The notes under the pieces: model-generated
Seen by the model: only the letters and a program-made list of their open reading frames with translations
The model's database searches: none
Told to the model about the DNA's origin: nothing
Source: Demequina zhanjiangensis
GTDB taxonomy: Bacteria; Actinomycetota; Actinomycetes; Actinomycetales; Demequinaceae
Direction of reading: 5' to 3'
Assembly: GCF_030418315.1 (NCBI RefSeq)
Contig: NZ_JAUHPV010000011.1
Span: forward strand, 1 to 64,000
DNA length: 64,000 nt
Shown: positions 12,508 to 64,000 of the stretch, piece by piece
How positions within the stretch are numbered: position 1 is the stretch's first letter
Layout of the letters: every line of letters starts with the position of its first letter
Program-made: the position numbers and the translations under genes

Positions 12508-12566
12508 CGGCTCCTGGCCCTGCCCGGAGGCGCCTCACCGCCGGTGACGACTCCGCACGGCTGACG

Positions 12567-13109: not shown

Positions 13110-13373
13110 TCGAACAATAGCGACGATGTTGCCGGTATGACCTATGAAGACGCGCGGGACGAGCTGATCATGATCGTCGCCAAGCTCGAGGCGGGTGAGG
13201 CGACCCTTGAGGAGTCCCTCGGCCTGTGGGAGCGAGGTGAGGCTCTCGCGGCGCGATGCCAGGAGCTCCTCGACGGCGCGAAGGAGCGCATCTCGACGGT
13301 CCGCGGTGAGGCGGACATGGCGGATGCGGGAGTGGTCGGCATCGTTCCGGCCGAGGAGGAGGACGACGCATGA
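13107..13373 (+). CDS. xseB: Exodeoxyribonuclease VII small subunit
   Basis: Small helical subunit of exonuclease VII, 88 aa. The conserved core MTYEDARDELIMIVAKLEAG...EESLGLWERGEALAARCQELLD, read with the gap, is diagnostic. The GTG at 13107 is chosen because a -10 box lies six bases before it; the in-frame ATG at 13137 would give 78 aa. The C-terminus has an acidic extension (PAEEEDDA). Its stop overlaps the start of the kinase gene (ATGA at 13370). Confidence 0.9.
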   Translation: MSNNSDDVAGMTYEDARDELIMIVAKLEAGEATLEESLGLWERGEALAARCQELLDGAKERISTVRGEADMADAGVVGIVPAEEEDDA

Positions 13374-47056: not shown

Positions 47057-48397
<1,341 letters not shown>

Positions 48398-48438
48398 CTA
48401 GCGACGGACCGGGGATCGCTCCCGCGGTCCTAGGTCCT

Positions 48439-48456
48439 ACCGGATGAACGTCCGGT
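48439..48456 (-). terminator. Weak hairpin after mazG
   Basis: ACCGGA-TGAACG-TCCGGT, a perfect 6-bp stem, lies 16 bases after the mazG stop and before the eno promoter region. Confidence 0.35.
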
Positions 48457-48471
48457 GACGCTTCACCTGAC

Positions 48472-49107: not shown

Positions 49108-49114
49108 GGATCCC

Positions 49115-49801
49115 TTACTCGGTCGCGTCGGTCGAGGGCTCGGGTGTCGCGTCGGTGCCGCCCGGGGCGACCGGCTCCGGCGAGCCGAACCAGTCGGGTG
49201 CGCTCGCGGCGTCCGCGTAGCCGGTGATGGCGACGAACACGACGTAGACGGTCTCGCCGATCGTGCCGACGTTGTCGGAGGCTGAGCTTGCGGCCTGCGA
49301 CAGGGAGTCGAAGAACGCTGCTGCGGTGAAGTCACCGAAGCGCGGGGAGGACACGGAGTCGGCCTCGAGCTCGTTCGCCATGTCGCTGAGGAAGGCGCTG
49401 CCCTCCTCGGACGTGGCGAGGAAGCCGATCGCCTTGGCGGTGTGCGTGACCTCGATCGCCTCAGGGCTCGTGTCGGCATCCGGGTAGCCGATGACCTCGG
49501 CCCACGCCTCGATGTCGGCGGCGATCTCGTCGTCGCTCCACGCCATGCCCAGGTCCGCGGCCTCGTCGATCGCGGCGTCGTGGAACAGCGCGAGGGTCAG
49601 CGCCCAGTCAGCGTTGTCGAGGATGCCGATGTCGAGCAGCCCTTCGCTGTACGACTGGACCTCCTCGAGGGTGACCGTGACGCCTGCGCCCTCGGCTGCG
49701 ACACCTGGGTCGCCCTGGCCAGGGACGGCGCATCCTGCCAGCGTGGACGCGGCGAGGACTGCGGTGGCGGCGAGGGACACGCGGCGCTTATCCGAGAACA
49801 T
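49115..49801 (-). CDS. Lipoprotein of unknown function (SurA-N-like)
   Basis: A 228-aa exported lipoprotein with signal peptide RRVSLAATAVLAASTLAGC (lipobox LAGC, Cys near residue 24). The mature part contains VTVTLEEVQSYSEGL, reminiscent of the SurA N-terminal chaperone domain, but no PPIase domain follows. The C-terminus is a Pro/Thr/Glu-rich tail. ATG 49801 is preferred (AGGA at good spacing) over ATG 49810, which abuts the mfd stop. It lies between mfd and mazG; function unknown. Confidence 0.7.
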   Translation of the reverse strand: MFSDKRRVSLAATAVLAASTLAGCAVPGQGDPGVAAEGAGVTVTLEEVQSYSEGLLDIGILDNADWALTLALFHDAAIDEAADLGMAWSDDEIAADIEAWAEVIGYPDADTSPEAIEVTHTAKAIGFLATSEEGSAFLSDMANELEADSVSSPRFGDFTAAAFFDSLSQAASSASDNVGTIGETVYVVFVAITGYADAASAPDWFGSPEPVAPGGTDATPEPSTDATE

Positions 49802-49811
49802 GAGCCTCATC

Positions 49812-52800
49812 CTAACCGCGTGCGGCAGGCGCGCCGACAGGCTGCAGCGCCTTCACCAGCTCGTGCACCCATTCGAGCATCGGGAGGCCCTCGATGGGCT
49901 TCCCGCCGAGGCGTGCGGTCATGGGTGCGGGGACCAGGATCTGGCGGACGGCGGGCTTGATCATGGTGCCGGGGTACAGGCGCGTGAGGCGCATGGACGC
50001 GGAGTCGGGAAGCTCGACGGGCGAGACGCGGATGAACTTGCCCTGGCTGACGACGTCGGTGATGCCGTGCTCGCGCAGCACGAGCCTGAGGCGTGCGACG
50101 GCGAAGAGGTTCTGCACGGGCTCGGGCAGGGTGCCGTAGCGGTCGTCGAGCTCCTCCTCGATCTCGGCGAGCGTGGCCTCGTCGGAGGCGTCCGCGATCT
50201 TGCGGTACGCCTCCAGGCGCAGCCGCTCGTGCTCGATGTACTTCGTGGGGATGTGCGCGTCGATGGGGAGCTCGATCGTCATCGGCTCCTTCTCCTCGGC
50301 CTCGCCGCGGAATCCTGCGACGGCCTCTCCGACCATGCGGATGTAGAGGTCGAAGCCGACGCCCTCGATGTGGCCCGACTGCTCGCCGCCGAGCAGGTTG
50401 CCGGCGCCGCGGATCTCGAGGTCCTTGAGGGCGACTGCCATGCCGGAGCCGAGGTCGGTGTTGGCGGCGATGGTCTGGAGCCGATCATGCGCGGTCTCGG
50501 TGAGAGCCTTCGACGGCGGGTACAGGAAGTAGGCGTACGCCCTCTCGCGCGCGCGCCCCACGCGGCCGCGGAGCTGGTGCAGCTGGGACAGGCCGAACGC
50601 GTCGGCCCGTTCGACGATGAGGGTGTTGGCGTTGGAGATGTCCAGGCCGGTCTCGACGATCGTGGTGCAGACGAGCACGTCGTACTTCTTGTCGTAGTAG
50701 TCGACGATGACCTGCTCGAGCTGCTTCTCGCTCATCTGGCCGTGGGCGACGGCGATGCGCGCCTCGGGCACGAGCTCGCCGAGCTTGCGGGCGGCGGAGT
50801 TGATGGTCTTCACGGAGTTGTGGATGTAGAAGACCTGGCCGTCGCGCAGCAGCTCGCGCCGGATCGCGGCGGTCACCTGGGCGTCCTCGTGTGGGCCAAC
50901 GTAGGTGAGGATCGGGTGGCGCTCCTCGGGCGGGGTGGCGAGCGTGGACATCTCGCGGATGCCGGTGACGGCCATCTCGAGGGTGCGCGGGATGGGGGTC
51001 GCGGACATGGCGAGCACGTCCACGTCGGTGCGCATCGCCTTGAGGGTCTCCTTGTGCTCGACTCCGAAGCGCTGCTCCTCGTCGATGATCAGCAGTCCCA
51101 GGTCCTTGAAGCGCACGCGCCCGGTGATGAGGCGGTGGGTGCCGATGACCATGTCGATCGTGCCCTCGGCGAGCGCGTCGAGGATCTCCTTGGCCTCCTT
51201 GTCGGTCTGGAAGCGCGACAGCGCGGCGACCTTCACGGGGAACTGGGCGAACCGCTCGGTGAAGGTGTCGAGGTGCTGCTTGACGAGCAGGGTCGTGGGG
51301 CACAGCAGCGCCACCTGGGCGCCGTCCTGGATGGCCTTGAAGGCGGCGCGGACGGCCACCTCGGTCTTGCCGAAGCCGACGTCTCCGCACACCAGACGGT
51401 CCATGGGCACGGAGCGCTCCATGTCGCCCTTGACCTCGTCGATGGTGGTGAGCTGGTCGGGGGTCTCGACGTACGGGAACGATTCCTCGAGCTCGCGCTG
51501 CCACGGGGTGTCCTGCGCGTACTCGCGGCCGGTGGACGCCATGCGCGCGCTGTAGAGGCGGATCAGCTCGGCTGCGATCTCCTTGACCGCCTTGCGCGCG
51601 CGGCCCTTCGTCTTCTGCCAGTCGGCGCCGCCCATCTTGTTGACCGACGGAGCCTCGCCGCCCACGTACTTGGTGACCTGGTCCAGCTGGTCTGTGGGCA
51701 CGGACAGGCGGTCGCCGGGGCCGCCCTTCTTGGAGGGCGCGTACTCGATGACCAGGTACTCGCGCTCGACGCCGCGGACGGTGCGCTTGGCGAGCTCGAC
51801 GAACTTGCCGACGCCGTGGGCCTCGTGCACGACGAAGTCGCCGGGTCGGAGCTGGAGGGGGTCCACCTGGGCGCGCCGGCGGCTGGGCACCTTCACCTTG
51901 GGGCCGGCGGCGGTCGCGGCGCGGCCTGTCAGGTCGGACTCGTGGAGCAGGACGAAGCGCGACTCGGCCACCTCGTAGCCGCGGCCGGTGATGCCTGGCA
52001 CCACCGCGACGACGCCGTCGGCCGCGTCGGCGAGGGACGGGACGACGCGGGCGGGCACGTCGGCGTCGCCGAGCTGCTCGGCGATGCGGTGTGCGGAACC
52101 GGTCGACGCGGCGGCGAGGACGACCTTCCAGCCGTCGGTCACGCGGGTGCGCAGCCAGGAGAGGCCCTCACCGAGGCGTCCGCGGAACTCCTCCGCGGGA
52201 GCGATGCCGGTCTCGACGGCGCCGTGCGAGCCGAACGGCCCGAGCGTCGTCCACGCGAGACCGCGGGACTCGATGCCCTCCTCGAGCTCGGCGAGACCCA
52301 GGAAGACCGCGTCGGCCTCGACGGGTGCCTCGGCACCGGCGCTCGCCGACACCCATGCGGCAGCCAGGAACTCCTGCGCCGTCCGCTGCAGGTCCTCCGC
52401 ACGGCGGGCCAGGCGCTCAGGTTCGACGGCGAGCACGCGGGTGCCGCGCGGGAGCACGGCGGTGAGCGGCTCGAGCTCGTCGAGCAGGACAGGGATGAGG
52501 GACTCCATGCCCTCGACCGCGTGACCGTCAGCGAGGCGGGTGAGCATGTCCGCGGCGGCCGGGTACTCGTCCACGAGCGAGGCGGCGCGGGCCTTCACCG
52601 CGGGTGTGAGCAGCAGCTCGCGGCACGGCGGCGCCCACAGCAGCGGGACGTCCTCGAGCGAGCGCTGATCGGCCACGGAGAACGACCGGAGCGAGTCGAT
52701 CTCGTCGCCGAAGAACTCGATGCGGACCGGGTGGGGGTCGGTGGGCGCGAACACATCGACGATGCCGCCGCGCACCGCGAACTCGCCGCGTCGCTCGACC

Positions 52801-53333
52801 ATGTCGACGCGCGTGTAGGCGGCGGCCGAGAGCGATTCGACGAGGTCGGTGAGGTCGATCCTGTCGCCCACGTGCACACGCACGGGGGTCAGGTCCGCGA
52901 GGTGCGGCACGAGCGGCTGCAGGACCGCACGCAGCGGGGCGACCACCACGTCGAGGCGCGGCAGCCCGGTCTCCGAGGCGACCTCCTCCGGGTGCACGAG
53001 CCTGCGCAGGGTCGCGAGGCGTCGCGCGACGGTGTCGGAGCGCGGGCTCAAGCGCTCGTGAGGGAGGGTCTCCCAGCTGGGGAACAGGCCGATCGTCGCG
53101 GGGTCGAGGTAGGCGCCGAGCGCGAGCGCGAGCTGCTCCGCGTCTCCCCCGGTCGCGGTGACGACCACGACGGGACCGGCGTCGGCGTCGTCCGTGACCG
53201 CACTGGCCACCAGAGCGGGAGCCGCCGCACCGGGGCCGAGCAGGTGCCCGCTCGACGACAGATCGAAGGCGGGCAGCGACGCGAGGGCGTCCGCGAGCGC
53301 GGGTGCAGACGGGGCTGCGGTCTGAGACGACAA
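49812..53333 (-). CDS. mfd: Transcription-repair coupling factor
   Basis: An ATP-driven translocase that removes stalled RNA polymerase and recruits UvrA; about 1173 aa. The N-terminal UvrB-like module includes ATIGLFPSWETLPHERLSP. The RNA-polymerase-interacting domain includes LQLRPGDFVVHEAHGVGKFVEL. The helicase has Walker A GDVGFGKTEVAVRAA, DEEQ box IIDEEQRFGVEHKE and HQLRGRVGRARERAYAYFLYP. The C-terminal TRG/D7 part ends near residue 1150. The likely start is TTG 53333 with GGAGG four bases upstream; an ATG at 53387 or 53408 would add an unlikely leader. Confidence 0.93.
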   Translation of the reverse strand: MSSQTAAPSAPALADALASLPAFDLSSSGHLLGPGAAAPALVASAVTDDADAGPVVVVTATGGDAEQLALALGAYLDPATIGLFPSWETLPHERLSPRSDTVARRLATLRRLVHPEEVASETGLPRLDVVVAPLRAVLQPLVPHLADLTPVRVHVGDRIDLTDLVESLSAAAYTRVDMVERRGEFAVRGGIVDVFAPTDPHPVRIEFFGDEIDSLRSFSVADQRSLEDVPLLWAPPCRELLLTPAVKARAASLVDEYPAAADMLTRLADGHAVEGMESLIPVLLDELEPLTAVLPRGTRVLAVEPERLARRAEDLQRTAQEFLAAAWVSASAGAEAPVEADAVFLGLAELEEGIESRGLAWTTLGPFGSHGAVETGIAPAEEFRGRLGEGLSWLRTRVTDGWKVVLAAASTGSAHRIAEQLGDADVPARVVPSLADAADGVVAVVPGITGRGYEVAESRFVLLHESDLTGRAATAAGPKVKVPSRRRAQVDPLQLRPGDFVVHEAHGVGKFVELAKRTVRGVEREYLVIEYAPSKKGGPGDRLSVPTDQLDQVTKYVGGEAPSVNKMGGADWQKTKGRARKAVKEIAAELIRLYSARMASTGREYAQDTPWQRELEESFPYVETPDQLTTIDEVKGDMERSVPMDRLVCGDVGFGKTEVAVRAAFKAIQDGAQVALLCPTTLLVKQHLDTFTERFAQFPVKVAALSRFQTDKEAKEILDALAEGTIDMVIGTHRLITGRVRFKDLGLLIIDEEQRFGVEHKETLKAMRTDVDVLAMSATPIPRTLEMAVTGIREMSTLATPPEERHPILTYVGPHEDAQVTAAIRRELLRDGQVFYIHNSVKTINSAARKLGELVPEARIAVAHGQMSEKQLEQVIVDYYDKKYDVLVCTTIVETGLDISNANTLIVERADAFGLSQLHQLRGRVGRARERAYAYFLYPPSKALTETAHDRLQTIAANTDLGSGMAVALKDLEIRGAGNLLGGEQSGHIEGVGFDLYIRMVGEAVAGFRGEAEEKEPMTIELPIDAHIPTKYIEHERLRLEAYRKIADASDEATLAEIEEELDDRYGTLPEPVQNLFAVARLRLVLREHGITDVVSQGKFIRVSPVELPDSASMRLTRLYPGTMIKPAVRQILVPAPMTARLGGKPIEGLPMLEWVHELVKALQPVGAPAARG

Positions 53334-53483
53334 GGGTCCTCCAGGGCACGACGAAGCGCCGGAAAAGATCTCCGGTCGCCCTCCCATCGTAGGCGCGACC
53401 CCCGACACGGGATGCCGCCGGTGGAGAGCGCCAGCGGCGGGCGAGAGCCACGGCCGACGCGGTGGGGCCGCAGCCGGGAGGGT

Positions 53484-54197
53484 CTAGACGGTCGTCGCCT
53501 GCGCGGCGGCCTCCCGTGCGAGCAGCTTGAGCACCGCGGCGGCAGAACGCTCCGCGGCGTCGTCCAGATGCTCGTCGAACTCGACGCCACCGTCGCCCTG
53601 GCACATGTCCGACACGCATCGCAGGGAGAGGAACGGCACCTCGCTCATGGTGCACACCTGGCTGACCGCCGCGGACTCCATGTCGGTCGCGATCACCTTG
53701 GGGAAGCGCTCGCGGATCAGGTCGACGGTCTCCGCGACGGCGAACGCGTTCGCGGACGCCAGGTAGCCCTTCTTCGCGCCGAGCTCCACGGCCATGTCGA
53801 CGAGCCGCTCGTCGGACTCGTGGAACTCGTGGTGGCCCGGCACCTGGCCGTAGGCGTAGCCGATCGACGTGGAGTCGGCCGACCAGTCCAGGCAGCAGCA
53901 CGGGACCACGAGGTCGCCGACGGTGACGTGCCCGGGGATGCCGCCGCAGGAGCCGGCGGAGACGATCAGGGTGGGCGTCACGTCGGCGATCACGCCGTGC
54001 GCGACGAGCGTGGCGGCGCGGGCCGCGGCGACCATGCCGATGCCGGTGACGACGAGCAGGTAGCTCGCCTCTCCGCGCTGCACGAGATACGACTCGGGAG
54101 CCTCCGACACCTTCTCGGACGAGTCGGACAGCTTCAGGAACCCCTGTGCCTCCTCCGACATCGCCACGAGGACGGCCGGGATCGCACGGGTCGTCAC
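53484..54197 (-). CDS. mtnN: MTA/SAH nucleosidase (Pfs)
   Basis: Hydrolyses S-adenosylhomocysteine to adenine and S-ribosylhomocysteine, and MTA to methylthioribose; 237 aa. The catalytic residues are recognisable: Glu in VAMSEEAQ (residue 15 or 16), the substrate Glu in [11 protein letters not shown] and the proton donor Asp in RCVSDMCQG. The GTG start at 54197 overlaps the luxS stop (GTGA). Its product is the LuxS substrate, so the gene order follows the pathway. The sequence CCCLDW in the middle is an unusual triple-Cys stretch. Confidence 0.9.
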
Positions 54198-54664
54198 CTC
54201 ATCACGACCAGCAGGTCGTCGGCGTTCTCCAGGAACGCGTGCACCTCGTCGCGCATGTCCTCGAGCGAGTGGTTCGCGCCCCAACCGCACTGGATCGCGT
54301 TGGCTGCAGGCACCTCGGTGAGGTCGAGCATGTCGCGCATGGTCGCGAGGACGAGGCCCTTGACCTCCTCGACCGAGTGGTCGCCGCTCATGATGAGGTA
54401 GAAGCCGGTCTGGCATCCCATGGGGCTGAAGTCGATCACGTCCTCGGAGAGCGAGCGCACGCATTCGGCGAAGGAGTGCTCGATCGAGTGCACGGCCGTC
54501 ATCTCGAGGTGCTCCTCGTTCGGCTGGCAGAAGCGCACGTCGAACTTGGTGAGCACGTCGCCGTGCGGCAGGACCTTGCGGTCGGCGACGCGGATGTAGG
54601 GGGCGTCGACCTTCGTGTGGTCCAGGTTGAAGGACTCGACCTTCATCTTGCGCGGTTCGGTCAC
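54194..54664 (-). CDS. luxS: S-ribosylhomocysteine lyase LuxS
   Basis: Cleaves S-ribosylhomocysteine to homocysteine and DPD, the precursor of autoinducer AI-2; 156 aa. The metal site HSIEH (two His) and the Cys in [11 protein letters not shown], plus [17 protein letters not shown], are as in characterised LuxS. The start is GTG 54664, eight bases after AAAGGAG; upstream in-frame sequence is not LuxS. A hairpin lies in the leader (54693-54712). It is uncommon for actinobacteria outside a few groups such as bifidobacteria. Confidence 0.95.
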
Positions 54665-54692
54665 GGCGACCGCTCCTTTCGCCTCGGGGATG

Positions 54693-54712
54693 CGGCGAGC
54701 GTGTCCTCGCCG
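54693..54712 (-). promoter_or_regulatory. Hairpin in the luxS leader
   Basis: CGGCGAG (54693-54699) and CTCGCCG (54706-54712) form a perfect 7-bp stem with a 6-base loop, ending 28 bases before the GTG of luxS. A weak -35-like TTGACC is at 54743-54748 on the minus strand. Confidence 0.35.
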
Positions 54713-54798
54713 ACTCGTCTCCCATCGTCCAACCAGGGGGACGGTCAAGGATAATCCGCAGGCGGGCGGCCGCACCAGGGCTGACGGGCGCGGCATCG

Positions 54799-54832
54799 GG
54801 ACACGTGTCCGATCCTTAGAATTGTGGCCATG
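54799..54832 (+). promoter_or_regulatory. Promoter and operator of the SAHH-like operon
   Basis: TAGAAT (54817-54822) matches five of six -10 consensus bases and lies seven bases before ATG 54830, predicting a leaderless mRNA. Just upstream is the perfect 12-bp palindrome GGACACGTGTCC (54799-54810), between -10 and -35, a classic repressor position. It could control luxS as well. Confidence 0.5.
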
Positions 54833-56296
54833 TCCGATCCCGTCCTTGAGGCCGAGCGCCTGCTGCGCCGCTTCGCTCGGGACACGAATCTGCTGATCGC
54901 GGGCCGGCCCATGCGCGTCGTCGGCGACGGTCGTGTCGCCGATGCGCTGCGCTCCATGCTGAGCGGCATGGGCGCCCGGCTCTCGTCCACTGGCCCGGCC
55001 GACGCCTCAACCGCCTCCCCCGACGAGGTCGCCTTCGACGTCGCATCCGGTGCGATCACTCTCGGAGGCTCCCCCCTCGCGGACCGCGGCGACGCCTCAG
55101 GCCGCCTGGACTTCGCCGCCGCGCACATGCCGGTCACGCGCGCGATCGCACGCTCGCTGGACGAGGCCGACGCTGTGAGGGGACTCCGGATCGGCGTCTC
55201 CATGACGCTCGAGCCGAAGACCGCGAACCTGGCGCTCATGCTCGCCGACGCGGGCGCCAAGGTCGCGGTCTACGCGCACCCGGACGAGACCGACATGGAC
55301 GTCGCTCAGGCGCTTCGGGACCGCGGCGTGCCCTGCGACGCCGACGCGACGCTCGCGCCTGAGCAGGAGCGCGGGGCGGCGCTCGCCTTCCTGAACCGGG
55401 GCTTCGACGTGCTCGTCGACGACGGCAGCCACCTGACCCGTCTCGCGCACGAGAAGGGGCTCGCCTGCGAATGGGTCGGGGCGACCGAGGAGACCACCTC
55501 CGGCCTGACCCCGCTGCGACGCATGCAGGAGTCAGGGGTGCTCTCGATCCCCGTGATCGCCGTGAACGACGCCGCGACGAAGACCGGCTTCGACAACCGC
55601 TACGGCACCGGTCAGTCGTGCGTGCTCGCGATCGCGGACCTGCTGGACGGCGCCGGGGTGACCCTGCGCGATCAGCCCGCCCTCGTCCTCGGGTACGGAC
55701 CCGTGGGGGTGGGCGTGGCCGCGCACCTGCGCGCGCTCGGCGTCGAGGTGAGGGTCGCGGAGGTCGACCCTGTGCGGGCCCTGCTCGCGGCGCACGACGG
55801 CTACGAGGTGGGCGCTGCCGACGCCCTGGGGTCCGGCGCGCTCGTCATCTCGGCGACAGGTGTTCCCGCGACGGTGTCGCCCCACCTGCTCGTCGCGGCC
55901 AAGGCTGTCGCCGTCGCCGGCGGTGTTCCTGGCGAGGTGGTGCTCGACGGGCTCGCTGACGCCCTCGAGCCGGTCGCCACCGACGTGGAGCGGCTCCCGA
56001 GCGGTGCGCTCCTGCTCGACCGTGGCGGCTGCATCAACGTCACCGCCGCCGAGGGCAACCCGATCGAGATCATGGACCTCAGCTTCGCGACCCAGCTCGC
56101 GGCCGTGGCGGAGCTCGTGACCGCCAGGCCCGGCGTCGGCGTGCACGCGCTGTCCGACGCAGCCGTCGCACGTGTCGGCGCCGCGGCGGCGCGCGCCCGC
56201 GGCCTCTCGCTCTCCCCCGCGCCCCCTGCGTCGTCACCGACGCAGGGAGACTGGCGCTCCCCCCGCTTCGCCACCACTCCCAAGGAGCCTGCATGA
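54830..56296 (+). CDS. S-adenosylhomocysteine-hydrolase-like protein lacking the active-site histidines
   Basis: An NAD-dependent SAHH-family protein, 488 aa, closest in motif style to the archaeal/Thermotoga branch (DNRYGTGQS). Aligned to human SAHH by eye: Asp131 is Asp198, Glu156 is Glu221, Asn181/Lys186/Asp190/Asn191 are Asn246/Lys251/Asp255/Asn256, and Asn346 is Asn403. The NAD site GYGPVG is at 288-293. However His55 is Thr126, His301 is Val366 and His353 is Asn410. So the cofactor site and Lys/Asp pair are kept while all three catalytic histidines are lost. The leading ATG is predicted leaderless. Coupled to the aminohydrolase by an ATGA overlap. It is not a standard AhcY. Confidence 0.8.
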
Positions 56297-57612
56297 CGGC
56301 GTTCCCCGTCACCCTCTACTCGGCGTCCCTCGTGCTGCCGATCACCGCCCCGCCGATCCTTGACGGCGCGATCGCCGTGCGCGGCGAGCGGATCCTGCAC
56401 GTCGGCTCCCGCAGCTGGGTCGAGCAGTCGCTCCACGAGCGCGGCCTCCCCGTGGAGCACGTGCACTGGGACGGCGTGCTCATGCCGGGCCTCGTCAACG
56501 CGCACACGCACCTGCAGTACACGGGCATGGCGTCCGTGGGCCGGGGACGCTACCAGGGCTTCGACGACTGGGCGACGGCGTTCAACCCCGTGTACGCGCA
56601 GCCGCACGACTGGGCACGCGACGCCGCTCTCGGCGCCTCCCAGATGATCGGGGCCGGTGTCACGGCCGCCGCGGACATCGTGACCGATCCCGAGGCCGCG
56701 CGCGCCCTCCACGACGCGGGCCTCGCGGGCATCGCCTACTGGGAGGTCATCGACTGGACCAACGACGATTGGCGCGCCCAGGGCCGCAAGGAGGTGGAGG
56801 CCGCGCTCGACTCGCTCCCCTCCCGGCCCGGCACGGGCCTGTCGCCCCACGCGCCCTACTCGCTCGAGATCGTCCCGCTGCTCGAGATCCCGGACATCGT
56901 CCGCGAGCGCGGCAGCCGCATCCACATCCACCTGGGTGAGTCGGGCATCGAGCGCGAGTTCGATCACGATCGCCACGAACCGTGGCAGTCGCAAGGGCTC
57001 GGCAGCCTGATCGAGCTCCGGCAGGCCGGCTTCGGCACCTCCGCGACCGAGTACGTGGACCACCTGGGGGTGCTCGGCCCGGACTGCCACATCGCTCACG
57101 GTGTGTACATGAGCGAGTCCGACCGCGCGATCCTCCGGGCCCGCGGCACCACCGTGGCGCTGTGCCCGCGCTCCAACGAGGTGATCGGCCTCGACGCCCC
57201 TCCCGTCGCCGCCTACCTGCGCGAGGGCAGCCCCATCGCGGTCGGCACCGACTCCCTGTCCTCGTCGCCGTCGCTCGACCCGATGGCCGACGTCGCCGCG
57301 CTGATGGGGATCGCCCGCAACCAGGGCTACTCGCACGACGACCTCGCCGAGCGGCTGCTCCGCGCCGCGACCCTGGGCGGCGCGCACGCCATGGGGATCG
57401 ACGAGGGCCAGGAGCGCACGGGCTACCTCGCAGTCGGCGCGATCGCCGACCTCGCGTTCTTCGACATCCCCGTGACCGATGTGACGCAGACCCTCACCAC
57501 GCTCGCCGAGTCCGGCGAGGGACGTGCCGCCGCGACAGTCTCGTCGGGCCGCGTCCGCTACGCGACCCCCGCGTTCACCAACGCCACCGGAGTCTCCGAG
57601 GAGCACGCATGA
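56293..57612 (+). CDS. COG0402 aminohydrolase (MTA/SAH or aminofutalosine deaminase type)
   Basis: A metal-dependent amidohydrolase of 439 aa. The metal and catalytic residues are present: HTH in VNAHTHLQYTG (near residue 70), HLGES with Glu (near 215), IAHGVYM His (near 270) and VGTDSLSSSPSLD Asp (near 325). CPRSNEVIG is closer to aminofutalosine-type than to classical MTA/SAH deaminases (CPQSN), so deamination of an adenine-containing nucleoside is likely but the exact substrate is open. Stop and start overlap on both sides, tying it to the SAHH-like and cupin genes. Confidence 0.82.
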   Translation: MTAFPVTLYSASLVLPITAPPILDGAIAVRGERILHVGSRSWVEQSLHERGLPVEHVHWDGVLMPGLVNAHTHLQYTGMASVGRGRYQGFDDWATAFNPVYAQPHDWARDAALGASQMIGAGVTAAADIVTDPEAARALHDAGLAGIAYWEVIDWTNDDWRAQGRKEVEAALDSLPSRPGTGLSPHAPYSLEIVPLLEIPDIVRERGSRIHIHLGESGIEREFDHDRHEPWQSQGLGSLIELRQAGFGTSATEYVDHLGVLGPDCHIAHGVYMSESDRAILRARGTTVALCPRSNEVIGLDAPPVAAYLREGSPIAVGTDSLSSSPSLDPMADVAALMGIARNQGYSHDDLAERLLRAATLGGAHAMGIDEGQERTGYLAVGAIADLAFFDIPVTDVTQTLTTLAESGEGRAAATVSSGRVRYATPAFTNATGVSEEHA

Positions 57613-58043
57613 CCGTCCCCGCCACCGCGTCGGCGCTGAGCCTCGAGCCGCATCCCGAGGGAGGCTGGTTCCGCCGCTACTACACGTCGCCGATCCCGGT
57701 CGAGACGCCCGGCGGCGCCCGCCCTGCGGTCACGATGATCCACTACCTGCTCGCCCCCGGCGAGCACAGCGCGTGGCACGTCGTGTCGTCCGACGAGATG
57801 TGGCTGTGGCACGGTCCCGGCCGCCTCGAGCTCGCGCTCGGAGGCGAGGGCGACGAGCCCGGCGAGGCCTCCGTCGTCGTGCTCGGGCCCGATGCTCAGA
57901 GCGGCGACGCCCAGCAATGCCTGGTACCTGCAGGGGTCTGGCAGTCGGCCAGGCTCGTGGCCGAGGAAGAGGTGCTCGTCAGCTGCGTCGTATCCCCCGG
58001 CTTCGACTTCGCCGATTGGAGACTGGCGGAGCACGACCAGTAG
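57609..58043 (+). CDS. DUF985 cupin protein
   Basis: A 144-aa single-domain cupin. Motifs of the family: LEPHPEGGWFRRYYTSP, IHYLLAPGEHSAWHVVSSDEMWLWHGPG (in parts HSAWHVVSSDE, MWLWHGPG) and VPAGVWQSARL, with PGFDFADWRLAE at the end. His and Glu residues could bind a metal, as in other cupins. Whether it is an enzyme or a binding protein is unknown. It overlaps the aminohydrolase gene by four bases and precedes the ABC transporter by 68 bases. Confidence 0.85.
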   Translation: MTVPATASALSLEPHPEGGWFRRYYTSPIPVETPGGARPAVTMIHYLLAPGEHSAWHVVSSDEMWLWHGPGRLELALGGEGDEPGEASVVVLGPDAQSGDAQQCLVPAGVWQSARLVAEEEVLVSCVVSPGFDFADWRLAEHDQ

Positions 58044-58111
58044 GATTCTCACACCCGCGAGCGATCGATGAGGATCTCGCTCGACCCCCCTTTCTGTCCC
58101 AGGAGAGATCA

Positions 58112-58984
58112 ATGCACATTGCCCCTGCCCTGCGTCGCGCCTCCGTGGCCGTCGTCGCCCTCTCGACGCTCGCGCTCGCGGGCTGCTCCAGCTCCACCGA
58201 GGCCGAGACCTCGGCCACGCCGACCGACGCCGCGACCGCAGGCGCCGAGGCCGCGCTCGAGACCTTCACGGAGGGCAAGCTCACGATCGCCACCGGCGAG
58301 CCCGCCTACGAGCCGTGGGTCATCGGCGACGCCCCCGAGTCCGGCGAGGGCTTCGAGGCCGCCGTCGCGTACGCGGTCGCCGAGGAGCTCGGCTTCGCCG
58401 CCGACGACGTCGTGTGGGTCCGCACCACCTTCGACTCCGCGATCGCCCCCGGCGCCAAGGACTGGGACTTCAACATCCAGCAGTTCTCGATCACCGACGA
58501 GCGCCGCCAGGCCGTGGACTTCTCCTCGCCGTACTACGTGACCACGCAGGCCGTCGTCTCCGTCGAGGGCAACGACTACGCCGAGGCCGGCTCGATCGCC
58601 GACCTCGAGGGCGCCGCCATCGGCGTCGCGGTCGGCACCACGTCCTACGACGTCACCGCCGAGGCGCTCGGCGAGGACAACATCCAGGTCTTCAACTCCG
58701 TCGCCGACGTGGTCGCCGCCCTCAACTCGGGCCAGATCGACGCGTTCGTCACCGACCTCCCCGGCGCCTTCTACTCGGCCTACGTCGAGGTCGAGGGCGG
58801 CACGATCGTCGGCCAGTTCGCCTCCTCCGAGGGCGGCGACGAGTTCGGTCTCGTCCTCCCCAAGGACTCGCCGCTGACCGACGCCGTGACCGGCGCCGTC
58901 GACACCCTCACCGAGAACGGCACCCTCGAGACGCTCGAGACCGAGTGGCTCTCGGCGGCCGTCGACGTTCCCGTCCTCAACTAA
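58112..58984 (+). CDS. Polar-amino-acid-type ABC transporter binding lipoprotein
   Basis: A 290-aa lipoprotein of the family-3 (HisJ/GlnH) solute-binding group. The signal peptide MHIAPALRRASVAVVALS continues to the lipobox LAGCS (Cys near residue 24), then a Thr/Ala/Glu-rich linker. EPAYEPWVIGD, GFEAAVAYAVAEEL, SITDERRQAVDFSSPYYVT and IGVAVGTTSYD match the fold. AGGAGAG lies before ATG 58112. The ligand is probably an amino acid or amino-acid conjugate, given the upstream enzymes. Confidence 0.88.
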   Translation: MHIAPALRRASVAVVALSTLALAGCSSSTEAETSATPTDAATAGAEAALETFTEGKLTIATGEPAYEPWVIGDAPESGEGFEAAVAYAVAEELGFAADDVVWVRTTFDSAIAPGAKDWDFNIQQFSITDERRQAVDFSSPYYVTTQAVVSVEGNDYAEAGSIADLEGAAIGVAVGTTSYDVTAEALGEDNIQVFNSVADVVAALNSGQIDAFVTDLPGAFYSAYVEVEGGTIVGQFASSEGGDEFGLVLPKDSPLTDAVTGAVDTLTENGTLETLETEWLSAAVDVPVLN

Positions 58985-58996
58985 GGACCTCCACGC

Positions 58997-59866
58997 ATGA
59001 CCACTGACGGAGCGCCCACGCTCACCTGGCAGCCCAGCACGCTCGAGCTCGAGCGTCGCGCCGTCCGCAAGCGGGCGTCAGGGCGCTCCGTCATGGTCGC
59101 GCTCGCATCGACGGTGGTCTTCGCCGCCGTCGCGGGCACGCTCGTGCTCACCTCTCCCGGCTGGGAGAGCGTGCAGCGCACCTTCTTCAACCCCGAGATC
59201 GCGATCGACAGCCTCCCTCGGATCCTCGAGGGCCTGTGGCTGAACATCCGCGTGCTGTTCTTCGCCGCCATCGGCGTCGCAATTCTCGGCACCCTGCTCG
59301 CGGTGCTCCGCTCGCTCCGCGGCCCGGTGTTCTTCCCGCTGCGCGCCCTCGCCGCCGGGTACACCGACCTGTTCCGCGGACTTCCCGTGCTGATCGTCCT
59401 CTACCTGGTGGGCTTCGGCATCCCCGCGCTCAACCCGACGGAGCGCTATCCCGCCGCAGTGCTCGGCACGATCGGCATCATGCTCTGCTACTCGGCCTAC
59501 GTGGCCGAGGTGCTGCGCGCCGGCATGGAGGCCGTGCATCCGTCGCAGCGTGTCGCCGCCCGCTCTCTCGGGCTGTCGCACGGAGCGACGCTCCGGATGA
59601 TCGTCATCCCGCAGGGCCTGCGCAAGGTGGTGCCCGCCCTCATGAACGACTTCGTGTCGATGCAGAAGGACGTGGGCCTCATCTCCGTCCTCGGCGCAGT
59701 CGACGCCATCCGCGCCGCCCAGATCGTGCAGGCGCAGACCTACAACTTCACGCCCTACGTGGTGGCAGGACTCCTCTTCGTCGCGCTGAGCTTCCCGATG
59801 ATCCGCCTCACCGACCACATCTCCGCGCGCATGGCGAGCCGCGAGCAGATCGGAGGCACCGTATGA
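58997..59866 (+). CDS. Polar-amino-acid-type ABC transporter permease
   Basis: A 289-aa membrane protein of the HisM/GlnP family with five or six spans. An N-terminal polar stretch of about 30 residues precedes the first span (SVMVALASTVVFAAVAG). Central LFRGLPVLIVLYLVGFGIP and the EAA loop EAVHPSQRVAARSLGLSHGATLRMIVIPQGLR (in parts AARSLGLSHGATLR, IVIPQGLR) are typical. It lies 12 bases after the binding-protein gene and overlaps the ATPase gene. It is the only permease gene, so it probably works as a homodimer. Confidence 0.9.
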   Translation: MTTDGAPTLTWQPSTLELERRAVRKRASGRSVMVALASTVVFAAVAGTLVLTSPGWESVQRTFFNPEIAIDSLPRILEGLWLNIRVLFFAAIGVAILGTLLAVLRSLRGPVFFPLRALAAGYTDLFRGLPVLIVLYLVGFGIPALNPTERYPAAVLGTIGIMLCYSAYVAEVLRAGMEAVHPSQRVAARSLGLSHGATLRMIVIPQGLRKVVPALMNDFVSMQKDVGLISVLGAVDAIRAAQIVQAQTYNFTPYVVAGLLFVALSFPMIRLTDHISARMASREQIGGTV

Positions 59867-60648
59867 GCGCCGTCGAGCCCGGCAACGTCCCCACCTCCGG
59901 CAGCACCGCCACCGGCGGCGTCCTCGAGCTCCAGGACGTCCACAAGCTGTTCGGCGACAACCACGTCCTCAAGGGCATCGACCTGCGCATCGCCAAGCAC
60001 GAGGTCGTGGTCGTCATCGGCGCCTCCGGGTCCGGCAAGTCGACCCTCATGCGCACCATCAACCTCATCGAGCGCGTCGACGACGGCCGGATCCTGCTGT
60101 CGGGCGACGACATCACCGAGCCGCGCATCAACGTGGACAGGGTCCGCTCGCGCATCGGCGTGGTCTTCCAGCACTTCAACCTGTTCCCGCACATGAAGGT
60201 GATCGACAACGTCACCCTCGCCGCGCGGAAGGTCCACAAGATGCCCGCGGCCGAGGCCCGCGCCAAGGGGGTGGACCTGCTCACCCGTTTCGGCCTGGGC
60301 GACAAGGTGGACGAGTACCCCGACCGTCTCTCAGGCGGTCAGCAGCAGCGCGTCGCGATCGTCCGTGCGATCCTCACGGACCCGGAGCTGCTGCTCCTGG
60401 ACGAGATCACGTCCGCGCTCGACCCGATGCTCGTGGGTGAGGTGCTGGACCTCGTGCGCTCGCTCAAGGAGCAGGGCTCCACGATCCTCATGGCGACCCA
60501 CGAGATGTCCTTCGCGCGCTCCGTGGCCGACCGCGTGGTGTTCATGCACCAGGGTCGGATCCTCGAGCAGGGCAGCCCCGAGCAGCTCTTCGGCGCACCT
60601 CGCGAGGACGCCACGAAGGAGTTCCTGGCGCGCGTCACGTACCGCTAG
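59863..60648 (+). CDS. Polar-amino-acid-type ABC transporter ATPase
   Basis: A 261-aa GlnQ/HisP-type ATPase. An N-terminal 20-residue leader precedes the domain. Walker A GASGSGKST is near residue 54, signature LSGGQQQRVAIVRA near 155, Walker B LLLLDEITSALD near 178 and the His switch ATHEMSFARSVADRV near 212. The usual 'DEPTSALD' is DEITSALD, a variation seen in the subfamily. Last gene of the operon; it is convergent with the GH65 gene and no strong terminator is visible in the 28-base gap. Confidence 0.92.
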   Translation: MSAVEPGNVPTSGSTATGGVLELQDVHKLFGDNHVLKGIDLRIAKHEVVVVIGASGSGKSTLMRTINLIERVDDGRILLSGDDITEPRINVDRVRSRIGVVFQHFNLFPHMKVIDNVTLAARKVHKMPAAEARAKGVDLLTRFGLGDKVDEYPDRLSGGQQQRVAIVRAILTDPELLLLDEITSALDPMLVGEVLDLVRSLKEQGSTILMATHEMSFARSVADRVVFMHQGRILEQGSPEQLFGAPREDATKEFLARVTYR

Positions 60649-60676
60649 ACCGCGATCGGCCCAGCGCCGGACCGGG

Positions 60677-63205
60677 TCAGTCGACCACCTGCTCCTCGCC
60701 CGCGTCGTTCACCATGGCGGGCAGCGACGCGGTGATGACCGAACCGTCGGCGCGCAGCGTGCCATGGAACGCCGCGGGGTCAGGCGCCCCATCGATGCGC
60801 GGTCCCTGGTGCTTGAGCGGCACCACGACCTCGTTCTCGGGCGTGACCAGATGCCGCTCGCCACGCACGTTCACGGACAGGGCGCGGCCGCGCTCGATCT
60901 CGAACGAGATCGTGCTCTGACGCACCGTCACCTTGAGGCGGTTCGCGTGGACCGTGACGCGGTAGGTGAGCGACTCCCAGCTGTCGGGCAGGCGGGGGTC
61001 GAAGTTGAGCCCCTCGCCGTGGTCGCGGAAGCCTCCGAAGCCGTGGACCAGCGCCGACCACACGCCACCGGTGGAGGCGACGTGCACACCGTCGGCGGTG
61101 TTGTCGTGGAGGTTGGCGAGGTCGACGAACAGCCCGTCCCAGAAGTAGCGCAGGGCGAGCTGGTGGTAGCCCACCTCGGCCGCGATGATCGACTGGACCA
61201 CGCCGGACAGGGTCGAGTCGCCCGTGGTGATCGGGTCGTAGTACTCGAAGTCGGCGCGCTTCTCCTCGGGAGTGAAGTGCTCGCCCTGGAGGAACAGCGC
61301 AAGCACCACGTCGGCCTGCTTGAGGACCTGGAAGCGGTAGATGACCAGCGGGTGGAAGTGCAGCAGGAGCGGTCGCTTCTCGGGCGGCGTGTTCTCGAGG
61401 TCCCAGACCTCACGCTCGTGGAACAGCGCATCCTGCGGGTGGATGCCCAGCTGCTCGTCCCAGAGGATCGCCATGCCCTCGGCGGCGCGCTCCCACTCCT
61501 CGATCTCCTCCTCCTGGAGGTCGAGGCGGGCGACCATCTTGGCGTACTGGTCGGGCCACTGGCCCCGCAGCTTGCGCACGGACTCGGCGGCACAGCGCAG
61601 GTTGAAGCGCGCCATGACGTTCGTGTAAAGGTTGTCGTTCACGACCGTCGTGTACTCATCGGGCCCGGTGACGCCGTGGATGCGGAACGACTCGCCCTCA
61701 CCGCGGGAGTGCCTCCAGAAGCCCAGGTCGGCCCACATGCGCGCCGTCTGCACCAGGATGTCCACGCCCTCCCGGGCGAGGAACTCGTCGTCCCCTGTGG
61801 CGAGCACGTACTTGTTGATCGCATAGGAGATGTCGGCGTCGATGTGATACTGCGCCGTGCCCGCCGCGTAGTAGGCCGACGCCTCCTCGCCGTTGATCGT
61901 GCGCCAGGGGAACAGCGCGCCGTTCTGCGCGAGCTCGCCGGCCCGGCGCTCCGCCGCAGGAAGCAGTCGATACCGGTAGCGCAGCGCGTTGCGCGCGATC
62001 ACCGGGGACGTGTAGATGAAGAACGGGACGGCGTAGATCTCGGTGTCCCAGAAGAAGTGACCGCCGTAGCCGGAGCCGGTGACGCCCTTCGCGGGAACGC
62101 CGTACCCGTCGCCACGCGCGGCCGCCTGCAGCAGCTGGAAGATGTTCCAGCGCACCGCCTGCTGGATGTCCGACATGCCCTCGATCTCGACGTCGGACCG
62201 CTCCCAGAAGTCGGCGAGCCACTGACGCTGGTCCTCGAACTGCTTCTCCACGCCCTCCTCGCGGACGCGGTCGAGCGTACGGATGCAGCGGTCGGCGAGC
62301 TCGCGCGGAGGCACCATGCGCGACGTGTGATAGCTGACGACCTTGGTGAGCGAGAACGTCTCTCCGGGCTGAAGGCGGGCCCGGTACAGCTGCTTCGCAT
62401 AATCGGGCGCCACCTCTGTGGTGGTCGAGTACTCGACGTCGGACTCGATGTGGTGCTCCATGGAGCACGCGAGCGTCATGCCGGAGTCGTGGGTGCGGTA
62501 GCCCAGGACGACGCGGTGGTCGTCGCCGTGGTGGATGCGCGGCTCGAGCACCCGCTCGTCGAGCTTCTCCGCCTTACGGGGGTCGAAGCCTGACGTGGGC
62601 TGCTTGGTCGCCCGGTACTCGTCGAGCCCCGCACCCCGGTTGAGCATCTGCGACGAGATCGCGATCGGCGCCTCGTTGTCCAGGAGCGTCACCTCGAAGC
62701 GCATCACCGCCAGGTGGCGCTGCGCGAAGGACACCATGCGGGAGGACCTCACGCGCACCCTGTTGCCCGCGGGCGTGCGCCACAGGAGGTCGCGCGTCAG
62801 CACGCCCTCCTTCATGTCGAGCGTGCGCGAGTAGTCGATCAGGTCCGCCACGGAGAGCAGCAGCGGCTCGTCGTCCACGTAGAGGCGGATGACCTTCGGG
62901 TCGGGCACGTTGACGATCGTCTGGCCGGTGCGCGCGAATCCGTACGCCTCCTCGGCGTGGCGGATGGGCCACGTCTCGTGGAAGCCGTTGATGAACGTGC
63001 CGTGCTGGTGGGCGTCGTGCCCTTCCTCGATGTTGCCGCGCAGGCCGAGGTAGCCGTTGCCGACGGCGAAGAGCGTCTCGGTCGTGCCGAGGTCATCGAC
63101 GTCGAAGGAGGTCTCGATCAGCTTCCATGGGTCCGCGGGGAAACGCAGGCGGTCCATGTACTCGGGCGCACTCGTGTCCCGGAGAGGCCGGTGAGCAGCC
63201 TTCAT
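60677..63205 (-). CDS. GH65 disaccharide phosphorylase
   Basis: A glycoside hydrolase family 65 enzyme, 842 aa, phosphorolysing an alpha-glucoside (maltose, trehalose, kojibiose or nigerose) to beta-glucose 1-phosphate and glucose. FWDTEIYAVPFF and the catalytic region HGVTGPDEYTTVVNDNLYTN (catalytic Glu in GPDEY) are diagnostic; R-P-L-LLHFHPLVIYR binds phosphate. The N-terminal beta-sandwich and C-terminal module are present. The exact substrate cannot be read. ATG 63205 (MKAAHRPLRDTSAPEY) is the start; the open frame upstream is antisense overlap with the phosphatase gene. It overlaps that gene by four bases. Confidence 0.92.
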   Translation of the reverse strand: MKAAHRPLRDTSAPEYMDRLRFPADPWKLIETSFDVDDLGTTETLFAVGNGYLGLRGNIEEGHDAHQHGTFINGFHETWPIRHAEEAYGFARTGQTIVNVPDPKVIRLYVDDEPLLLSVADLIDYSRTLDMKEGVLTRDLLWRTPAGNRVRVRSSRMVSFAQRHLAVMRFEVTLLDNEAPIAISSQMLNRGAGLDEYRATKQPTSGFDPRKAEKLDERVLEPRIHHGDDHRVVLGYRTHDSGMTLACSMEHHIESDVEYSTTTEVAPDYAKQLYRARLQPGETFSLTKVVSYHTSRMVPPRELADRCIRTLDRVREEGVEKQFEDQRQWLADFWERSDVEIEGMSDIQQAVRWNIFQLLQAAARGDGYGVPAKGVTGSGYGGHFFWDTEIYAVPFFIYTSPVIARNALRYRYRLLPAAERRAGELAQNGALFPWRTINGEEASAYYAAGTAQYHIDADISYAINKYVLATGDDEFLAREGVDILVQTARMWADLGFWRHSRGEGESFRIHGVTGPDEYTTVVNDNLYTNVMARFNLRCAAESVRKLRGQWPDQYAKMVARLDLQEEEIEEWERAAEGMAILWDEQLGIHPQDALFHEREVWDLENTPPEKRPLLLHFHPLVIYRFQVLKQADVVLALFLQGEHFTPEEKRADFEYYDPITTGDSTLSGVVQSIIAAEVGYHQLALRYFWDGLFVDLANLHDNTADGVHVASTGGVWSALVHGFGGFRDHGEGLNFDPRLPDSWESLTYRVTVHANRLKVTVRQSTISFEIERGRALSVNVRGERHLVTPENEVVVPLKHQGPRIDGAPDPAAFHGTLRADGSVITASLPAMVNDAGEEQVVD

Positions 63206-63942
63206 CGTGCGATCGTCTCGCTGAGATCCTTGACCACGACGTTCGCTCCGGCGATCTCGAGCGCGTCCTCGCCTGCACCGCGGTCGACGCCGAGCACGAG
63301 GCCGAAGCCTCCCGCGCGCCCTGCGGCGACGCCGGTGAGCGCGTCCTCCACGACCACGCACTCCTTGGCGGGAACTCCCAGCAGGTCCGCCGCGAGCAGG
63401 AAGGTGTCGGGCGCGGGCTTGCCGGGAAGGCCCTTCTCGGCGGCCGTGACCGCGGACACGACCACGGGGAAGCGCCCGGCGAGGCCTGCGGCCTCCAGGA
63501 CGGCGTCGGCGTTGCGCGAGCTCGACACGACGGCCATCGGCACGTCGCCGATCGACTCGAGGTGCTCCACGAGCTCCATCGATCCGGGGTAGGGCGTCAC
63601 GCCGGTCTCCTTGAGCACTGACAGGTAGGCCTCGTTCTTCGCGTTGCCGAGGCCGCAGACGGTCTCGGTGCCGGGCGCGTCGGCCGGGTCGCCCCAGGGG
63701 ATCTCCACCCCGCGGGACTTGAGGCAGCGCGCCACGCCGTCGTACCGGGGCACGCCGTCGACGTGCGCGAAGTAGTCCGCGCTCGAGTACGCGGGTGTGA
63801 TGCCCTGCGCGGTGAAGTAGTCGTCGAAGAGACGCTGCCATGCGGCCATCTGCACCTCGAGCGTCGGCGTCAGGACGCCGTCGAGGTCGAACAGCGCGGC
63901 CGTGTACCCCTCACCCGGGGCCTGGGGGATGTGCCACGACAT
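63202..63942 (-). CDS. Beta-phosphoglucomutase-like HAD phosphatase
   Basis: A 246-aa HAD-superfamily protein. Motif I FDLDGVLTPTLEVQMAAW (Asp nucleophile), motif II VVSSSRNADAVL (Ser), the Lys of motif III near GLPGKPAPDTFLLAA and motif IV VVVEDALTGVAAGRAGGF are all present. In this context it most likely converts beta-glucose 1-phosphate to glucose 6-phosphate for glycolysis. An AGGAGG site precedes ATG 63942. It is upstream of and translationally coupled to GH65; the promoter lies beyond the window edge. Confidence 0.9.
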   Translation of the reverse strand: MSWHIPQAPGEGYTAALFDLDGVLTPTLEVQMAAWQRLFDDYFTAQGITPAYSSADYFAHVDGVPRYDGVARCLKSRGVEIPWGDPADAPGTETVCGLGNAKNEAYLSVLKETGVTPYPGSMELVEHLESIGDVPMAVVSSSRNADAVLEAAGLAGRFPVVVSAVTAAEKGLPGKPAPDTFLLAADLLGVPAKECVVVEDALTGVAAGRAGGFGLVLGVDRGAGEDALEIAGANVVVKDLSETIAR

Positions 63943-64000
63943 GATGCGCCTCCTGCGAGTGCTCGGTCGGTCACGCAGGCCCGGGCGGGAGAGTCCGGGA

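Follow-up and report, generated by a model that had tools for sequence, protein, structure and literature searches.

Which reaction is catalyzed by the divergent S-adenosylhomocysteine (SAH) hydrolase-family protein encoded at the head of a six-gene operon of Demequina zhanjiangensis, and what would the operon as a whole take up and degrade? The handling of SAH is nearly universal, and the known routes are SAH hydrolase (SAHH; EC 3.13.2.1, formerly 3.3.1.1), the Pfs/LuxS pair, and the archaeal S-inosylhomocysteine (SIH) route. The operon lies within positions 1 to 64,000 of contig NZ_JAUHPV010000011.1, a stretch of 64,000 nucleotides that is referred to here as the window. A first-pass annotation of this DNA described six genes running in one direction from 54830 to 60648, in which neighboring genes either overlap by ATGA (at 56293, 57609, and 59863) or are separated by short gaps (68 and 12 bases), and all of these features were confirmed. 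The Pfam matches agree with its combination of a SAHH homologue, a COG0402 deaminase, a cupin, and a polar-amino-acid importer of the ATP-binding cassette (ABC) type. The six genes are as follows.

54830..56296, + strand: SAHL, divergent SAH-hydrolase-family protein of 488 residues (PF00670/PF05221)
56293..57612, + strand: DEAM, COG0402-type amidohydrolase (deaminase) of 439 residues (PF01979)
57609..58043, + strand: CUP, cupin of the DUF985/Cupin_5 family, 144 residues (PF06172, 145.1 bits against a cut-off of 25)
58112..58984, + strand: SBP, family-3 solute-binding lipoprotein (PF00497, SBP_bac_3)
58997..59866, + strand: PERM, polar-amino-acid-type ABC permease (PF00528, BPD_transp_1; HEQRo_perm_3TM 58.6 bits against a cut-off of 42.2)
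59863..60648, + strand: ATP, polar-amino-acid-type ABC ATPase (PF00005, ABC_tran)

From the conserved gene order, the residue pattern of SAHL, and the neighboring genes described below, the operon appears to encode a variant of the route in which SAH is deaminated first, and a substrate class, an order of steps, and a chemistry are proposed on that basis. Among the top-ranked papers of a literature search whose coverage excluded most subscription journals, none was recognized as describing the six-gene set or the SAHL clade, in line with the earlier statement that the set was not recognized as a characterized system.

Gene order was compared across 95 loci with context (L032-L126), which were chosen by similarity and not at random. 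Eighty of these are the best-scoring of 148 relatives from one scan of a genome collection and come from Demequina, Microbacterium, Agromyces, Salinibacterium, Frigoribacterium, Leifsonia, Curtobacterium, Frondihabitans, Schaalia, and other genera; the remaining 15 (L112-L126) are picked matches from genomes of the same order. SAHL is a separate gene in 94 of the 95 loci. DEAM is the next gene downstream on the same strand in 94/94, at a distance, estimated from alignments, of no more than 60 bases in 89 of them. In the 95th locus (L112), SAHL and DEAM share one uninterrupted open frame, within which a separate internal start is possible. A deaminase in the same genome, as the SIH route calls for, is thus present as a gene that directly adjoins SAHL in 94/94 loci and is assigned from its family only. 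The complete six-gene order appears in 83 of the 94 loci. The first-pass annotation had staked its single-pathway reading on conservation of the transporter and cupin with the enzymes across relatives; both travel with the enzymes in these 83 loci, and the six genes therefore form one real conserved unit.

The order is found without the cupin in L050, L052, and L113. SAHL and DEAM are the only two of the six genes in L115 and L119, and also in L060, whose contig ends about 1.4 kb past SAHL. The transporter genes are divergent in L098 and L099, and the final one or two genes are absent from L061 and L077, where the loci are cut by the contig end. In a Curtobacterium locus (L104), an additional gene of unknown type at 12519-13310 separates the cupin from SBP.

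The genus is taken to be Demequina, because L005 matches L033 and L012 matches L034 in the SAHL upstream sequence, and each pair includes one locus from a named Demequina. Within the genus, SAHL was detected in 34 of 44 genomes (30/34 in one search and 4/10 in another), with one copy in pieces. In G867 (C1:853849-855110), SAHL lies in overlapping pieces in different frames of a genome that is 50% complete, which reflects decay or an assembly error. SAHL was found in 41 of the 151 genomes of family f4, tentatively Bifidobacteriaceae to judge from a radA-ribF gene context (E < 1e-40), and in 3 of 394 genomes of a class-wide sample (E < 1e-50), the window genome included, all with the same gene order. 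Mobile carriage was considered and rejected, since a search of 72,556 plasmid records gave just 2 with a SAHL match (E < 1e-30); one of the two encodes a third type of protein that is described below.

SAHL contains the AdoHcyase and NAD domains of the SAHH family (PF05221, 57 bits; PF00670, 60.5 bits) and falls below every NCBIfam adenosylhomocysteinase cut-off listed, with scores of 271.2, 258, 232.5, 146, and 38 bits against cut-offs of 485, 275, 497.6, 512, and 440 bits, respectively. Its solved relatives by sequence are SAH hydrolases, those of the Thermotoga type first, together with one SIH hydrolase entry. The AlphaFold model has a mean predicted local distance difference test score (pLDDT) of 94, and the nearest structures in a fold search are the SAH hydrolases of Pyrococcus and Thermotoga. 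At its N-terminus, the model has about 88 further folded residues, which are missing from a SAHL of 411 residues in Roseateles.

The active site was compared in an alignment of 126 SAHL rows, 101 of them distinct; some genomes contribute two rows, and the window's own locus is entered as both L001 and L002. The key residues of the window protein are T126, L-E-P-K at 127-130, D198, R204, E220, N246, K251, D255, G365, and N410. The position of the catalytic histidine (T126 in the window) is occupied by another residue in 126/126 rows (T in 57, V in 57, I in 7, F in 4, and M in 1), and the HxTxE/Q motif is absent. The gate histidine is replaced by Gly (G365 in the window) in 126/126 rows and the gate Phe by V, I, or T, which leaves no His-Phe gate. 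The equivalent of H353 is Asn in 126/126 rows. The HxExK motif keeps its E and K, as E128 and K130, in every row (126/126), and with them the part that reads hypoxanthine. Enzymes with the HxExK motif favor SIH, according to Koeppl et al. 2024 (PMC10978960). The invariant E-x-K would fit an order of steps in which deamination comes first and SAHL acts second.

In the mouse SAHH structure, E156 and D190 are assigned to the 2'-OH, T157 and K186 to the 3'-OH, and H55, D131, and H301 to the 5'-OH; H55 is described as the base for water and D131 as the residue for the C4' proton, and C79 and N80 line the homocysteine channel (PMC4647836). The equivalents of D130, D131, E156, N181, K186, and D190 are invariant in 126/126 SAHL rows, and SAHL therefore retains the oxidation residues and those of the C4' chemistry. 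In SAHL numbering, D197, D198, E220, N246, K251, D255, and N256 are invariant across the rows. The 5' side is changed: the equivalents of C79 and N80 differ, H150, D155, and H201 occur in 112, 122, and 114 of the 126 rows, respectively, and the segment in the window protein reads H150-P-D-E-T-D155. R204 is found in 126/126 SAHL rows and in none of the Thermotoga SAHH, the six canonical rows, and the five distant rows compared. As judged from these alignments, the base-reading, oxidation, and C4' residues are kept and the 5' side is rebuilt. The reading of SAHL as a SAHH homologue thus stands at the level of the family, but the loss of both 5'-position histidines and the presence of an arginine at 204 make plain hydrolysis of SIH an unlikely function for SAHL, a complication that the first-pass annotation did not foresee.

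Two distant versions of the cluster were identified. In plasmid NZ_CP084754.1 of Roseateles sp. XES5 (a record flagged UNVERIFIED_ORG), the gene run comprises a LacI gene, a full-histidine HxExK paralogue, a SAHL-type gene, a sugar-type ABC transporter, a DEAM relative (43% identical), and a nucleoside hydrolase. The SAHL-type gene is annotated as adenosylhomocysteinase, though the residues that define this activity are gone. The plasmid operon (L155, 7676-16584) thus shows two tandem "adenosylhomocysteinase" genes with the catalytic histidines in just one. In G1102, a genome of the same phylum as the window, SBP (46%), permease (44%), ATPase (53%), a full-histidine HxExK paralogue, SAHL (37%), and DEAM (43%) homologues follow one another, except that a reading frame of 141 residues was called between the ATPase and the paralogue. 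The gate of the G1102 SAHL is Met-Gly instead of Gly-Val. Because both distant versions pair SAHL with a full-histidine paralogue of the SIH-hydrolase type, SAHL probably performs a different step from that paralogue.

The residues H71, H73, H213, E216, H269, and D320 of DEAM, which we take to be the amidohydrolase metal site, are invariant in 22/22 aligned sequences. The structure nearest to the DEAM model is the Oleispira amidohydrolase 3lnp, followed by the adenosine/methylthioadenosine (MTA) deaminases 4dzh, 4gbd, and 4f0r; isocytosine deaminase and triazine hydrolases rank close behind. DEAM scores under the cut-off with all of the NCBIfam models listed; its best score is 114.7 against 540 bits, and the MTA/SAH deaminase model gives 58 against 779 bits. 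The solved relatives of CUP are 1znp, 3loi/3lzz, 1yud, 3m3i, and 1xe7. Since the DUF985 family includes 3LZZ, a GDP-bound structure (PMC11594714), binding of a 6-oxopurine by the cupin is plausible by analogy.

The domain set of the importer is complete, with a SBP_bac_3 protein, a HEQRo permease domain, and an ABC ATPase. The best NCBIfam scores of ATP are those of amino-acid-type ATPases, all below cut-off. R131 and D215 of SBP, presumably the Arg and Asp that hold an alpha-amino acid as R75 and D157 do in the glutamine-binding protein GlnBP, occur in 91/92 and 88/92 rows, respectively. An unusual Q123-Q124-F125 segment (window 58478-58486) is found in 92/92 rows, and the first two aligned relatives of SBP have A-G-M at one or both sites where SBP has Q-Q-F. 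This difference suggests a different ligand. Amino-acid-type uptake as part of the set, as first proposed, is borne out in the window and the 83 loci with complete order, but not in L115, L119, and the Roseateles plasmid, where a sugar-type ABC transporter is nearby.

From these features, the operon is proposed to salvage, by coupled import, SAH or a close 5'-substituted adenosine with an amino-acid tail, a reading to which slightly less than an even chance is given. The importer would take up the substrate by its alpha-amino-acid end, as R131 and D215 of SBP suggest. DEAM would then convert the adenine to hypoxanthine, as expected from its family, its metal-site residues, and its closest structures. 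SAHL would bind the resulting 6-oxopurine nucleoside via E128 and K130 and oxidize the ribose 3'-OH with tightly held NAD, after which D198 would act on the C4' proton and the 5' group would leave. With R204 present and neither the water-activating nor the gate histidine retained, SAHL would have to depart from SAH hydrolase either in its leaving group or in what becomes of the 4',5'-unsaturated intermediate. In the weakest of the steps, the cupin may bind or act on the 6-oxopurine product. The sulfur amino acid and the purine and ribose would thereby be salvaged.

Genes of SAH metabolism recur beside the cluster, which supports the salvage reading. In the window, two divergent neighbors lie directly upstream of the operon and outside it, the second overlapping luxS by four bases.

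54194..54664, - strand: LuxS, S-ribosylhomocysteinase (PF02664, 163.8 bits)
53484..54197, - strand: MTA/SAH nucleosidase (Pfs) (TIGR01704, 117.9 bits against a cut-off of 73.8)

The window Pfs scores 133 bits with the PRK05584 model, below the cut-off of 169. Neither these upstream genes nor the histidine loss of SAHL had been mentioned in the first-pass annotation. LuxS is found in 10 of the 44 genomes of the genus, all 10 of which contain SAHL and none a second SAHH-level match. In 9 of these 10 the distance between LuxS and SAHL is no more than 5.7 kb: seven have LuxS some 0.1-0.2 kb upstream of SAHL, and two have it roughly 5.7 kb downstream. The tenth is a draft in which the two genes are on different contigs. 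An ordinary SAH hydrolase match is present in 32 of the 34 genomes that lack LuxS and absent from two, both incomplete. In one of the searches behind these counts, no more than four candidates were scored for each genome, and a subset of the matches was read as sequence. LuxS and ordinary SAH hydrolase were mutually exclusive in the genus in these searches, with LuxS found at either flank of the SAHL operon.

In L123, L124, and L125, a PNP_UDP_1 gene of the nucleosidase type is located between the cupin and SBP, with TIGR01704 scores of 94.9, 74.1, and 74.9 bits against 73.8 and PRK05584 scores below cut-off. A look-alike gene, judged without a model scan, occupies the same place in L122 and L126. 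In L115, a NtaA/DmoA-type monooxygenase adjoins DEAM and is followed by an inosine-uridine nucleoside hydrolase and a sugar-type binding protein; L119 has the same gene run by eye. A nucleoside hydrolase is therefore nearby both in L115 and on the Roseateles plasmid, which likewise supports salvage. Four PF01048 (PNP_UDP_1) proteins are encoded in the window genome.

The start of the operon was also characterized, and one element was identified.

54817..54822, + strand: TAGAAT, a -10-like element 7 nucleotides before the SAHL start codon and putative operon promoter, recognized by conservation of TANNNT

Of 63 distinct sequences upstream of SAHL, 58 have a TANNNT that ends 5-11 nucleotides 5' of the start codon, where shuffling predicts 1.6; for DEAM, SBP, PERM, and ATP the counts are 0/27, 0/20, 0/27, and 0/3, respectively. 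These counts were made, after the pattern had been noticed, in those loci of L003-L115 whose match begins at the start of the protein. The SAHL start codon is the ATG at 54830, and the conserved element so close to it implies that transcription begins at a single conserved point and that the operon mRNA is leaderless or almost so. No promoter-like site was found in a sigma-70 consensus scan of window positions 54100-60900. In eight related loci, a riboswitch search at gathering thresholds matched two tRNAs only. The palindrome GGACACGTGTCC at 54799 was considered as an operator and rejected, as the window alone has it among 76 upstream sequences and the others differ by at least three bases.

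Several observations weigh against the salvage reading. DEAM and SAHL are both under the curated cut-offs of their nearest NCBIfam families, and the loss of both histidines in 126/126 rows is hard to square with plain SIH hydrolysis. In G1102 and Roseateles, the enzyme that cleaves the S-C5' bond may be the full-histidine HxExK paralogue beside SAHL. The link to LuxS is not obligatory, as SAHL is present in 24 of the 34 genus genomes without LuxS, and it may reflect a single acquisition inherited within the genus. No PF01156 nucleoside hydrolase was found in the window genome, and no Rfam riboswitch match was found in window positions 48000-64000 at E up to 5. The same enzymes are accompanied by two types of ABC transporter, for amino acids and for sugars, and L109 has no transporter in the locus stretch examined; the amino-acid importer, and perhaps the amino-acid tail of the substrate, is thus not universal. 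The cupin is missing from 5 of the 94 loci (L050, L052, L113, L115, and L119) for which a contig end is not responsible.

The rebuilt 5' side could also mean that the pathway logic is the same and the substrate is another one, namely an adenine nucleoside with an anionic or unusual 5' group, such as a nucleoside antibiotic or S-adenosylmethionine, for which R204, H150, D152, E153, and D155 were put in place. The base- and ribose-site residues are invariant as this explanation expects, and the changes are found at the C79/N80 equivalents, the gate His-Phe, and the catalytic histidine. R204 goes with the histidine loss in every protein checked, and the two distant operons hold a SIH-hydrolase-type enzyme as well. 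The LuxS and nucleosidase neighbors, however, point to SAH or MTA, and the presence of SAHL in 30/34 genus genomes in one search is unlike a sporadic resistance trait. A substrate of this kind is considered unlikely, though by no means negligible.

Alternatively, SAHL may not cleave at the 5' position at all and may be a nucleoside 3'-oxidoreductase, an epimerase, or a base-eliminating lyase, with the SIH-hydrolase-type paralogue, the cupin, or a nucleosidase finishing the reaction. This would agree with the loss of the 5'-side catalysts and retention of the 3'-oxidation residues, and with the full-histidine paralogue that precedes SAHL in two unrelated records. Release of the nucleobase is a known side reaction of SAH hydrolases (PMC10978960). 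D198, the C4' proton residue, is nevertheless kept in 126/126 rows and would not be needed by a pure dehydrogenase, and no SIH-hydrolase-type paralogue was noted in the gene-order clusters, although whole genomes were not searched for one. We regard this explanation as improbable.

Loss of two active-site histidines in every row would also be expected of a regulatory protein. The AHCYL proteins are non-catalytic regulatory relatives of SAHH. A role of this type is very improbable for SAHL, given that seven ribose, C4', and hinge residues are invariant in 126/126 rows and that the pairing with the deaminase is constant, to the point of one open frame in L112. Almost no weight is given to SAHL as the ordinary SAH hydrolase of the organism, even though it is the sole PF05221 match in the window genome and its plasmid relative is annotated adenosylhomocysteinase; this housekeeping identity was rejected because 23 genus genomes contain, besides SAHL, another distinct match at the SAHH level (with the canonical HxTxQ motif in G009 and G045, the two that were read), the window genome has LuxS and Pfs, the NCBIfam cut-offs are missed, and both histidines are lost. 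Least credible is menaquinone synthesis with aminofutalosine as the substrate of DEAM, for which a score of 101 bits with the aminofutalosine-deaminase-family model and the presence of the Helicobacter enzyme among the fold matches are outweighed by a cut-off of 320, four other models that score higher, adenosine/MTA deaminases that rank above it in the fold search, and an importer and a SAHH relative that, to our knowledge, have no place in that pathway.

The relationship of SAHL to other family members was analyzed at the level of the phylum. Matches were obtained in 208 of 296 genomes, and among the proteins aligned only that of G1102 is of the SAHL type; the others have HxExK or HxTxE or belong to a third type (G900 and G886). 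This third type, which includes a Rubrobacter protein, has Pro for the catalytic histidine, a Gly gate, and Arg at 204 and keeps H353. It is encoded in L179 (7910-16450), L170, and L156 (6088-7353), and in L179 its neighbors are a QueT-like energy-coupling factor (ECF) transporter, a luciferase-like monooxygenase, and a purine/cytosine permease. A tree was built from 41 selected proteins, which included 18 SAHL proteins; these 18 form one group (support 100/99), and the third type is placed elsewhere, among the HxExK enzymes. The SAHL group is kept (100/100) when five trait columns and one long-branch row are removed. Forcing SAHL and the third type into a single clade gave a p-AU of 0.067 and was not rejected. 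Arg-204 thus appears to go with histidine loss in two groups, perhaps of independent origin. Five more distant SAHH relatives (L127-L131), analyzed separately from the 95 loci, form a separate HxExK clade with D131N, D190E, N at 353, and both histidines kept in 5/5. The member in L128 is beside an adenosine deaminase, and that in L131 is beside a PfkB-type kinase and a nucleoside hydrolase. It is possible that this clade is a second actinobacterial hydrolase of the SIH type.

There is a real chance that SAHL performs new chemistry. More specifically, SAHL may found a new functional clade of the SAHH family: a histidine-less, arginine-bearing NAD enzyme that carries out an undescribed C4'/C5' chemistry after a dedicated deaminase in the import-driven catabolism of adenosyl-amino acids. 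The clade would span several actinobacterial families and a proteobacterial plasmid, with its most distant copies beside a SIH-hydrolase-type enzyme and with a second, Rubrobacter-like clade that shows the same loss, possibly independently. This proposal is tentative and is placed well short of an even chance. If SAHL does use the SAHH scaffold for new chemistry, the way in which a well-studied family is read from its sequences changes. In the available part of Koeppl et al. (PMC10978960), the degradation of SIH in Streptomyces that produce it is left open. The operon, found in other actinobacteria and conserved widely, is a concrete candidate for a related route whose starting point is outside the cell.

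Among known systems, the first-pass annotation named the archaeal pair of a deaminase and SIH hydrolase as the nearest parallel, correctly in light of the E-x-K that SAHL carries. DadD and SIH hydrolase of Methanocaldococcus jannaschii, with a similar pair in Thermotoga maritima, likewise combine a deaminase with a SAHH-family protein that has E-x-K. SAHL differs by the missing His of HxExK, the missing gate histidine, R204, and, in the window, the extra N-terminus of about 88 residues, and here the pair shares its operon with the genes of an importer and a cupin. Canonical SAH hydrolase (AhcY) shares the fold, the NAD domain, the ribose 2'/3' residues, and the C4' aspartate, whereas SAHL is without the HxTxQ/E motif, the gate histidine, and H353 and misses the NCBIfam cut-offs. 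The Pfs/LuxS detoxification pathway acts on SAH and its two genes adjoin the operon in the window genome, but they have no sequence relation to the operon enzymes, and this pathway removes adenine first with no deamination. The MTA/SAH deaminases of the TM0936 type have the COG0402 fold and the metal-site residues in common with DEAM, which is about 20-26% identical to them in the fold matches and far under the MTA/SAH model cut-off. The Roseateles sp. XES5 plasmid operon shares a SAHL-type protein, a DEAM relative, and an ABC importer in one gene run; it has a sugar-type transporter, no cupin in the stretch shown, and, in addition, a full-histidine SIH-hydrolase-type paralogue and a nucleoside hydrolase.

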